Source: an uncultured Sphingomonas sp. (GTDB taxonomy: Bacteria; Pseudomonadota; Alphaproteobacteria; Sphingomonadales; Sphingomonadaceae). Taken from it: a DNA stretch of 64,000 nucleotides. The notes beneath the pieces were generated by a model. It was not told the DNA's origin. It did not search any database and saw nothing but the letters and a program-made list of their open reading frames with translations. Below, one piece after another: positions 24,773 to 26,757 of this stretch; the stretch's first letter is position 1, and every line of letters begins with the position of its first letter. The position numbers were made by a program, and so were the translations under genes. Location: contig NZ_CADCVZ010000061.1 of the NCBI RefSeq assembly GCF_902806265.1, forward strand, positions 1 through 64,000, in the 5' to 3' direction.

Positions 24773-25483
24773 ATGACCCGCGACCCTGACACCATCCCGC
24801 CCTCGCAACTGGCCAAGCTAAACGAACTCGGCGCGCTGCTCCCCCGCATGTGGAAGAGCTTCGGCCACCTCGGGCCGCGCGGCCCGAAGGACGGCCCGCG
24901 CTGCCTGGTGATTCCCGGTTTCCTCGCTCACGACCGCACCACCGCCGCCCTCCGCCAAGCGTTCGGCGCGGCGGGCTGGCGCACCTACGGCTGGGCCAAT
25001 GGCCTCAACACCGGCGCCAAGGCCGGCACCATCGAGCAGCTGCGCGAGCGGCTGCGCTCGCTGGCGGGCAGAGGTCCCGTGCTGGTGGTCGGCTGGAGCC
25101 TGGGCGGCGTGTTCGCCCGTGAGCTGGCGCGCGAAGTGGCCGAACAGGTGCTGGCGGTGGTGACGCTCGGCTCGCCCTTTTCCGGCGACCCCCACTGGAA
25201 CAACGTCTGGCGGCTGTACGAGCTCGTCGCCGGCCACAAGGTCGACGCGCCGCCCGTCATGCGCATCCACGACAAGCCGCCGGTGCCCACCCTGGCGCTA
25301 TGGTCGCGCAAGGACGGGCTGGTCGCGCCGCGAGCCGCCTACGGCCTGCCGGACGAGAGCGACAAGGCGGTGGAGATCGGCTGCAGCCACATGGGCTTCG
25401 CAGTCACCGAGGGCGGCACCCGCCGGGTGGTCGAGGAAACGACGCGCTTCCTCAGCGAGCAGGGGCTGGCGGTTCCGCGCTGA
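24773..25483 (+). CDS. Alpha/beta hydrolase
   Basis: This 236-residue cytosolic alpha/beta hydrolase has the nucleophile elbow VVGWSLGGVFARELA and the oxyanion-side strand CLVIPGFLAHDRTTAALR. A likely catalytic Asp lies in LWSRKDGLVAPRAA and a His in IGCSHMGFAV. There is no signal peptide. The family includes esterases and lipases; the substrate is unknown. Its 3' end overlaps the convergent phhA gene by 32 bases. Confidence 0.87.
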   Translation: MTRDPDTIPPSQLAKLNELGALLPRMWKSFGHLGPRGPKDGPRCLVIPGFLAHDRTTAALRQAFGAAGWRTYGWANGLNTGAKAGTIEQLRERLRSLAGRGPVLVVGWSLGGVFARELAREVAEQVLAVVTLGSPFSGDPHWNNVWRLYELVAGHKVDAPPVMRIHDKPPVPTLALWSRKDGLVAPRAAYGLPDESDKAVEIGCSHMGFAVTEGGTRRVVEETTRFLSEQGLAVPR

Positions 25484-26222
25484 GGATCGCATCGACCGCT
25501 GCATCGACCCCGTCGGCCACGAAGTACATCGGCTGCATCGCGTCGTGCCGATAGGGGGTGGCGGTCGCTTCGGCCACGCTGAACCGCCGCCGCTCGATCG
25601 CGCCATCCTCCAGGCTCGCCCGCGCTTCGCCGAAGCTCGACGCCAGCCCGGCACCAAGGATCTTCACCTCGCCCCCTTCGCGGCACAGTCCGAACTCGAC
25701 CGTGTACCAGTAGAGCCGCGCCACCCACTCGCCCCTGCCGGCGGCGATCGCCTGGAGACCCGTCCGCCCGACCTGCTCCATCGCCGCCGCCATGCCGGGG
25801 TGCGCCAGCATCGGCACATGGCCGAAGATGTCGTGAAAGCAGTCGGGCTCCTCCAGATAGTCGAGCTGCTCCCGCCGGCGGATGAAGTTGCCGATCGGGA
25901 ACACGCGCTCGCTCAGCATGGCGAAGAACGCCTCGTCGGGCACCAGCCCGGGCACTGCTACCGTCTCCCAGCCGCTCCGCGCCTGCAGCCGCGCGTTCAG
26001 CCGTTCGAGCTCGGGCACGCCCGGCGCTCCCATGTCGAGCAGGTCCAGCCCGTCCAGAAAAGGCATCACCACCCGCGTCCGCAGCAGCTCCACCTGCCGC
26101 GCGTAGAGCGTGTCCCAGACCGCATGGTCCTCCGCGCTGAAGCGGTCCCAGCCCTGGTCCACCACATGGGCCTGCCATGCCGGCTTCTCCAAAGTGCTGG
26201 TTTCATCGAACTGCTGGAACAT
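25452..26222 (-). CDS. phhA: Phenylalanine 4-monooxygenase
   Basis: This 256-residue, single-domain bacterial phenylalanine hydroxylase turns Phe into Tyr using tetrahydropterin, O2 and Fe(II). The iron ligands are two His in CFHDIFGHVPML and a Glu in LYWYTVEFGLCRE. No regulatory ACT domain is present, as usual for bacteria. ATG at 26222 was chosen (AGGA about 10 bases upstream) over the frame from 26246. It is preceded by a leader peptide with three Tyr codons and a terminator, and phhB lies upstream on the same strand. This suggests attenuation control within the phhB-phhA unit. Confidence 0.96.
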   Translation of the reverse strand: MFQQFDETSTLEKPAWQAHVVDQGWDRFSAEDHAVWDTLYARQVELLRTRVVMPFLDGLDLLDMGAPGVPELERLNARLQARSGWETVAVPGLVPDEAFFAMLSERVFPIGNFIRRREQLDYLEEPDCFHDIFGHVPMLAHPGMAAAMEQVGRTGLQAIAAGRGEWVARLYWYTVEFGLCREGGEVKILGAGLASSFGEARASLEDGAIERRRFSVAEATATPYRHDAMQPMYFVADGVDAAVDAILSAEPPAPAR

Positions 26223-26244: not shown

Positions 26245-26276
26245 AAAAAACCCCGCCGGATTGGTGTCGGGCGGGG
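26245..26276 (-). terminator. Rho-independent terminator inside phhA leader (candidate attenuator)
   Basis: On the minus strand a 7-bp G+C stem (CCCCGCC with GGCGGGG, loop about 12 bases) is followed by TTTTTT. It ends 22 bases before the phhA start codon and 29 bases after the leader-peptide stop codon. The 5' arm could instead pair with GGUGGGG in the leader coding region, giving an antiterminator. Confidence 0.8.
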
Positions 26277-26304
26277 CGGTCAGGTCGCGTATGATAAGCG
26301 CGCG

Positions 26305-26364
26305 TCAGCCGGTCCCCACCTCTTGGCGGTAATAGTAGGCAGCGGCAGCAACGGTGCGCGTCAT
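26305..26364 (-). CDS. Tyr-rich leader peptide of phhA
   Basis: This 19-codon ORF, MTRTVAAAAYYYRQEVGTG, has an AAGGAG ribosome site 6 bases before its ATG and three consecutive Tyr codons (TAC TAT TAC). It starts 50 bp after the phhB stop. Downstream come a terminator with a T6 tract and then phhA, the enzyme that makes tyrosine. The layout is that of ribosome-stalling attenuators. GGUGGGG just after the Tyr codons can pair with the terminator's 5' arm, and ACCGGC near the end can pair with GCCGGU at the ribosome site. These pairings were found by eye. Confidence 0.7.
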   Translation of the reverse strand: MTRTVAAAAYYYRQEVGTG

Positions 26365-26413
26365 CACCGGCTCCTTATTCGCTCGCGCGGCTGAACGCCA
26401 GATGGCGATTTCG

Positions 26414-26671
26414 CTAGCGCCCCATTCCAGCGGCGAGCGCGTCGAGCGCCCGCGCCAGCTCCCGATCCTTGTCGGTGATCCCGCCGGCATCGTGGGTGGT
26501 CAGGCGGAAGTCGACCCGGTTCCAGCGCGAAGTGAACTCCGGGTGGTGGTCGACCTTCTCCGCATGCAGCGCGACTCGGGTGAGAAAGGCAAACGCCGCC
26601 CCGAAATCGCGAAAGCGGAAGCTCTTGGCCAGCGCGTCGTCCTGCTCGGTCCAGCCGTCGGGAGTGTCCAT
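26414..26671 (-). CDS. phhB: 4a-hydroxytetrahydrobiopterin dehydratase (pterin-4a-carbinolamine dehydratase)
   Basis: This 85-residue protein recycles the pterin cofactor after phenylalanine hydroxylation. The family motifs are FRFRDFGAAFAFLTRVALHA, EKVDHHPEFTSRWNRVDFRL and TTHDAGGITDKDRELA. ATG at 26671 has AAGG at 8 bases. A TTG at 26737 would add 22 residues that could complete the usual first helix (LADWRKAW), so the start is not certain. It lies upstream of the leader and phhA and diverges from hpd, which shares an 86-bp regulatory gap. Confidence 0.92.
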   Translation of the reverse strand: MDTPDGWTEQDDALAKSFRFRDFGAAFAFLTRVALHAEKVDHHPEFTSRWNRVDFRLTTHDAGGITDKDRELARALDALAAGMGR

Positions 26672-26757
26672 CGGCCATGCCTTGCGCCAGTCGGCCAGCC
26701 TTGAAAAGCCCGCTTCGGGGGAGCAGGGGAAAGGCAAGAAACAAGGAGTGCCCCGCC

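Follow-up and report, generated by a model that had tools for sequence, protein, structure and literature searches.

A candidate tyrosyl-tRNA-sensing transcription attenuator upstream of the phenylalanine hydroxylase gene phhA in a lineage of Sphingomonadaceae

In E. coli, pheL-pheA and pheST are attenuated through the ribosome in response to an aromatic amino acid (PMC11802643; here and below, articles are cited by PMC number for the excerpts available to us). These systems read Phe codons and serve phenylalanine synthesis or charging; their targets include no hydroxylase. Among leaders with a Tyr codon, that of C. glutamicum aroR-aroF, which carries Phe-Tyr-Phe, comes closest; it is said to answer to phenylalanine and not to tyrosine, and its target is DAHP synthase (PMC11802643). 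The trpL attenuator of S. meliloti trpLE(G) shares with the one studied here a leader ORF with a run of end-product codons, a stop codon, a terminator, a predicted competing helix and, if our placement of the transcription start is right, a leaderless mRNA (PMC7298713). The gene phhA itself is under control of PhhR/TyrR in Gammaproteobacteria, in this case a DNA-binding regulator with a role in degradation and, as far as the excerpts go, without a leader peptide (PMC5343134, PMC3223726, PMC1173090). A tyrosine-supplying role of the hydroxylase (PAH), like the one proposed below, is known from Dyella and Legionella, which lack prephenate or arogenate dehydrogenase, and from Echinicola, where PAH works alongside the dehydrogenase; the excerpts of this article mention no attenuator (PMC7311316). 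Furthermore, an attenuator has been predicted before hisHb-tyrA in Agrobacterium (PMC1173090). The original prediction for the present locus, made from the DNA sequence, knew of no described attenuator for phhA. We likewise found none in the open-access literature that we searched, nor did we find there the combination of leader peptide, tyrosine codons and attenuation; tyrosine is not mentioned in the available part of PMC2965389.

The phhB-phhA interval in the window

The window is a stretch of 64,000 nt from an uncultured Sphingomonas sp. (NCBI RefSeq assembly GCF_902806265.1, contig NZ_CADCVZ010000061.1, positions 1 to 64,000). A leader ORF with three Tyr codons and a terminator with a T6 tract had been predicted on its minus strand between phhB and phhA, and these parts are present as described (Table 1). 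The model for 4a-hydroxytetrahydrobiopterin dehydratase (phhB) is one of five NCBIfam models above cut-off, and the phhB ORF possibly starts further out, at 26737 (-). The best TIGR01267 match of phhA scores 252.9 bits, slightly short of the cut-off of 264.75. The divergent neighbour is hppD (4-hydroxyphenylpyruvate dioxygenase, NCBIfam).

Table 1. Features of the phhA leader region and its flanking genes in the window.
Feature	Position	Strand	Basis
phhB, pterin-4a-carbinolamine dehydratase; outside the attenuator	26414..26671	-	NF002017, 89.8 bits, cut-off 80
Promoter-like element: CCATCTGGCGTTCAG (26405-26391) and GAATAA (26380-26375)	26375..26405	-	alignment of relatives
Leader ORF MTRTVAAAAYYYRQEVGTG, 19 codons	26305..26364	-	sequence; homologous leaders in 71/111 phhA loci
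Putative sensor: adjacent Tyr codons TAC TAT TAC	26329..26337	-	sequence; Tyr clusters in relatives
Region 1, CCGCC, partner of GGUGG (26320-26316)	26325..26329	-	predicted hairpin
Region 2, GGUGGGG, candidate antiterminator 5' strand within the leader	26314..26320	-	complementarity permutation tests
Region 3, CCCCGCC, terminator left arm and candidate antiterminator 3' strand	26270..26276	-	sequence, pairing tests
Region 4, GGCGGGG (26257-26251), and U-tract T6 (26250-26245)	26245..26257	-	sequence, covariation
Terminator: CCCCGCC arm, GGCGGGG arm, T6	26245..26276	-
phhA, phenylalanine 4-monooxygenase, proposed controlled gene; ATG at 26222	25452..26222	-	NCBIfam TIGR01267

The terminator stretch has a folding energy of -18.2 kcal/mol, which was equalled by 1 of 200 shuffles; it is missing from the output of a simple terminator scan, and taken alone the 180-nt region as a whole has an ordinary fold energy (z -0.22). 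The hairpin of region 1 (-8.0 kcal/mol) does not lie below shuffled sequences, 64 of 200 being equally low. The proposed competing pair of GGUGGGG with CCCCGCC is present, and the two form a helix in the folding model when the RNA is cut 5' of the right arm of the terminator (-22 kcal/mol), although its energy, too, is not below that of shuffles of the same stretch (59/200 as low). A second proposed pair, ACCGGC with GCCGGU at the ribosome site, did not hold up: GCCGGU precedes the ATG in one of 70 aligned copies, the window's own. A search with Rfam yielded nothing above threshold near phhA in the window, and with Trp_leader (RF00513, gathering threshold 41) the phhA leader scored 15.6 bits.

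An element of the form CCAT-N4-CGTTCAG-N11-GATAAG or similar precedes 55 of 61 leaders of the window's genus, and its TTCA lies 28-32 nt 5' of an in-frame ATG; shuffled sequences gave a mean of 4.5 and a maximum of 9. The count is favoured by the use of the element in choosing the leader ATG, and the start codon is ambiguous in 32 of 70 leaders, which have more than one in-frame ATG. The element became visible only on aligning relatives; a sigma-70 scan gave no site, the 15-mer occurs exactly once in the window, and allowing one mismatch it is unenriched there (2 found, 1.0 expected). If GATAAG is the -10 element, the 5' UTR would comprise a few bases at most and AAGGAG would not be the ribosome site. 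AAGGAG had been put forward as a good one, but SD-like words stand before only 6 of 70 leaders, the window's included, and are not conserved. In the window, AAGGAG is probably situated at the transcription start or 5' of it, and the leader mRNA is probably near-leaderless; transcription of S. meliloti trpL, whose mRNA is leaderless, starts at the ATG (PMC7298713).

Distribution of the leader and tyrosine metabolism in relatives

We searched 298 genomes of the family and 71 of the window's genus, which we take to be Sphingomicrobium, and found PhhA in 254 and 65 of them, respectively. The upstream sequences of 111 phhA loci were read. The family sample contributed its 30 best loci, the genus a further 62, some of them second copies, and a set of chosen genomes, nearly all without tyrA, the remaining 19. 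The chosen genomes are not a random set, having been selected for lacking tyrA or phhA, with the addition of one that has tyrA (G283; G, g and L numbers are our handles for genomes, genera and loci). The architecture of leader, stop and terminator is found at 71 of the 111 loci and in 3 of the 24 genera represented: 65 loci belong to the window's genus and 6 to two other genera of the family (g45, g54). A script recognized 67 of them by a rightly placed ORF with a Tyr cluster. The other four (L103, L106, L107, L114) were added by reading; they keep leader, terminator and RNA helices with one or two scattered Tyr codons, perhaps a sign of weakening control. The 40 loci without the architecture comprise 37 of other genera, 18 of these forming the bottom of the best 30, and three in the genus, namely both copies of G323 and the second copy of G307. 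Counting G347, 64 of the 65 PhhA-bearing genus genomes have the element, with G323 as the sole exception. Two Tyr-containing ORFs (L022, L155) were rejected as unrelated to the leader; they have no terminator.

Among the best 80 PhhA loci of named species in the matches listed, a Tyr leader precedes phhA in Sphingomonas arenae (L127), Sphingomonas parva (L130) and Sphingomicrobium astaxanthinifaciens (L131) and at L128, and a form with one Tyr codon in Sphingomicrobium lutaoense (L129); the scan found no leader/terminator pair at the other 75. In L130 leader and hairpin are present with an interrupted U-tract, as in L116; both were left out of the 70 aligned copies, as was L273. An RNA model run over the 298 family genomes gave 12 phhA leaders with at least 49.5 bits and nothing else above 35.1 bits, its training sequences including those 12. 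In the window's genome the phhA leader scored 87.8 bits and the next match 23.4 bits; of ten weaker matches there, the one that was read is a Trp leader. Of three family loci read below the 12 strong matches, two (L219, L220) look by eye like ordinary terminators behind other genes, and the third (L221) shows no Tyr leader.

We checked whether the Tyr run, the terminator and their spacing are kept in relatives. In 70 copies a Tyr cluster, a stop and a U-tract are again found, stop and U-tract lying 53-64 nt apart (mean 58.5, sd 2.0), which supports the initial reading of a Tyr run before a terminator as the mark of ribosome-stalling attenuation. YYY occurs in 35 and YY in 57 of the 70 leaders; at least two Tyr within six residues are present in 67, the remaining 3 falling short, and the last Tyr sits 7 residues ahead of the stop in 51. 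Tyr accounts for 21.6% of the regulatory part, compared with 0.8% of the N-terminal part, the regulatory part containing 1.0% Phe, 0.6% Trp and 1.4% His. The Tyr codons are 161 TAT and 25 TAC. Outside the Tyr cluster and the end the peptide is variable, and substitutions by codon position (328, 368 and 424 at positions 1, 2 and 3 in 92 overlapping pairs) give no clear coding signal.

A search with PF02153 (prephenate/arogenate dehydrogenase; positive in 13 of 14 of the control set) placed tyrA over cut-off in 263 of the 298 family genomes. It was missing over cut-off in all 12 genomes with a strong leader match as against 23 of 286 others, with a Fisher value of 1e-12 that ignores shared descent. 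Within the genus, PF02153 exceeded the cut-off in 4 of 71 genomes: G323, which has no leader, G310, which has one, G354 (leader present; doubtful assembly, 70% complete, 5% contaminated) and G307 (tyrA split into two pieces; of its two phhA copies, one has the leader; also a doubtful assembly). Eight more genus genomes gave matches below the cut-off (19.7-25.5 bits). The prephenate dehydratase gene pheA (PF00800) was found over cut-off in 14 of the 71, and in 12 of 53 of good quality. Because pheA was not found in the other 57, the usual enzymatic route to phenylalanine seems closed to most of the genus. It had been proposed that phhA is here a biosynthetic gene under end-product attenuation. 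The lack of tyrA, and often of pheA, in the same genomes argues for this, and so does the position of phhA beside shikimate-pathway genes in three relatives examined: aroA-pheA (G229), aroC-aroB (G310) and aroE-aroB (G323, leaderless copy). PhhA is therefore probably a tyrosine-supply enzyme in these bacteria.

The same evidence bears on an alternative in which the attenuator works, phhA is mainly catabolic in homogentisate breakdown, and the Tyr codons merely link its expression to the general translation state. The divergent hppD in the window would suit such a role, as would the PhhR/TyrR-controlled degradation gene of Gammaproteobacteria (PMC5343134). Such a gene should respond to its substrates and not to shortage of its product, and with tyrA missing from most leader genomes and aro genes as neighbours we consider this alternative improbable.

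In a PhhA tree of 119 sequences, 72 of them with a leader, the distribution of the leader takes three changes to explain, which can be read as a single gain plus two losses. The would-be losses, L119 (G323) and L118 (G307), are both in genomes with tyrA matches. These two leaderless copies fall inside the leader-bearing part of the tree; L118 adjoins the two-piece tyrA match and L119 adjoins aroE and aroB. The attenuator is not a prerequisite for losing tyrA, since there are genera with leaderless phhA and no tyrA: g19, g20, g52, g55, g60, g65, g80 and most of g7, together with genomes G010 and G190 (g11 and g64). In this comparison, the lack of tyrA in 13 genomes was read from the family list by elimination. 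The phhA loci L069-L087 except L078 lie in genomes without tyrA over cut-off and have no Tyr leader. Also, five genomes that are at least 99% complete, three of the genus (G321, G330, G333) and two of g54 (G053, G129), have neither phhA nor a pheA match, and no tyrA over cut-off; they are predicted to be Tyr and Phe auxotrophs or to use unknown enzymes.

Pairing of the terminator and its proposed competitor

The terminator pairs form in 96.8% of cells across 69 distinct sequences. Three of five measures (paired cells; two-sided changes per cell; covariation score) lay above all 500 shuffles, and the other two (pairs with a two-sided change; pair types) did not; the structure was derived from the same 69 sequences and relatedness was uncontrolled in these comparisons.

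The end of the leader (region 2) pairs with sequence at or just 5' of the left arm of the terminator. The forms differ between copies and the pairing is kept: in addition to GGUGGGG:CCCCGCC of the window we found GAGGUUGG:CCAACCUC, GAGGCUGG:CCAGCCUC, GCGGUGG:CCACCGC and GCGAUGG:CCAUCGC. Leader ends paired with their own region 3 at -19.5 kcal/mol compared with -16.6 kcal/mol for permuted partners in 70 copies, and none of 5000 permutations was as good; 38 non-redundant copies likewise gave 0/5000. Against the bases 5' of the arm only, 1/5000 permutations was as good; against the arm alone the pairing was not significant (302/5000). Two controls, leader end with spacer (4995/5000) and upstream leader with region 3 (4022/5000), were without signal. 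A reversed region 3 gave a weaker signal (8/5000), and since it also beats most permutations, composition contributes to the complementarity.

When the RNA was modelled up to the left arm, five or more 2:3 pairs formed in 70/70 models with a stalled ribosome and in 56/70 without a ribosome; the window copy does not form the 2:3 helix in the ribosome-free model. With the ribosome on the stop codon, 2:3 pairs are excluded by construction of the model. When the whole terminator is present, equilibrium folding keeps it (P 0.5 or more) in 61/70 stalled models, among them the window copy, in which it is restored with P 0.99. A switch would therefore have to be kinetic, with the antiterminator formed before the right arm is made. 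The best 2:3 helix overlaps the terminator arm by at least 4 nt in 47/70 copies and by at most 2 nt in 22/70; in the latter, antitermination would have to be positional or steric.

The terminator left unmelted at equilibrium in most stalled models could also speak for a Tyr run that acts otherwise than via termination, be it as an arrest peptide, through a trans-acting peptide or attenuated RNA, or by translational control, and in S. meliloti both peTrpL and the attenuated RNA do work in trans (PMC7298713). This seems to us very improbable, as the peptide varies outside the Tyr cluster and its end whereas the 2:3 complementarity is conserved, as is a terminator with a U-tract, and the gap from the U-tract to the start of the PhhA protein match, ranging from 16 to 167 nt, argues against translational coupling. 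That the terminator belongs to phhB, which in the window ends only 49 nt upstream of the leader ORF, and that the short ORF is an accident is scarcely credible: it is contradicted by conservation, ORF and terminator precede phhA also where the upstream sequence differs from that of the window, and the Tyr bias and the complementarity of regions 2 and 3 would go unexplained.

Proposed mechanism and relation to known attenuators

On the whole, phhA is very likely under a ribosome-mediated transcription attenuator that has tyrosyl-tRNA as its signal. Transcription would probably begin a few bases 5' of the leader AUG. With ample charged tRNA-Tyr, the translating ribosome would reach the UGA and cover region 2, leaving region 3 to pair with region 4, and the resulting terminator would halt RNA polymerase before phhA. 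With charged tRNA-Tyr scarce, the ribosome would stall at the Tyr codons and cover region 1, so that the emerging region 3 would pair with region 2 and polymerase would read through into phhA. PhhA would then convert phenylalanine to tyrosine, the only tyrosine route recognized in these genomes. A restriction of phhA expression to tyrosine shortage, as it appears from the sequence, would fit the loss of the usual tyrosine-making gene.

More tentatively, one may think of a lineage with an animal-like tyrosine metabolism, most members of which lack pheA and tyrA, import phenylalanine and make tyrosine solely via phenylalanine hydroxylase. The enzyme would be governed by a tyrosyl-tRNA attenuator of its own, possibly the first on record, and in about one third of the copies the antiterminator would abut the base of the terminator and antiterminate sterically; as a whole we regard this picture as possible but doubtful. 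If the attenuator works as proposed, it would be a regulatory fingerprint showing that PhhA, usually classed as degradative, supplies tyrosine in these bacteria, and the tyrosine source of tyrA-less genomes becomes a testable question.

The mechanism as such is known; the target phhA and the sensed amino acid tyrosine are apparently undescribed, so the list of ribosome-sensed attenuators would gain a target and probably an amino acid. The trpL systems differ in having Trp codons and trp genes. A Trp leader of similar layout is found before trpD in the window's own genome: it encodes MVGPAASYAYSTSAAPRWWRTAMGGARWRWR, lies in the window at 37111-36958 (-) with a terminator CCCGCC...GGCGGG-T5, immediately precedes a trpD-like ORF (36937-35864), and a TTGACA starts 36 nt before its ATG. 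Among 30 TrpD loci of the genus, for two of which (L259, L270) the script took a wrong anchor base, 21 have a leader with at least two Trp codons, and TTGAC stands 35-39 nt before the ATG in 18. In all 21 Trp leaders tested the best antiterminator reaches 7-8 nt into the terminator arm, whereas in 22 of 70 Tyr leaders it merely abuts; overlapping and abutting helices thus offer a natural series on what an antiterminator requires.
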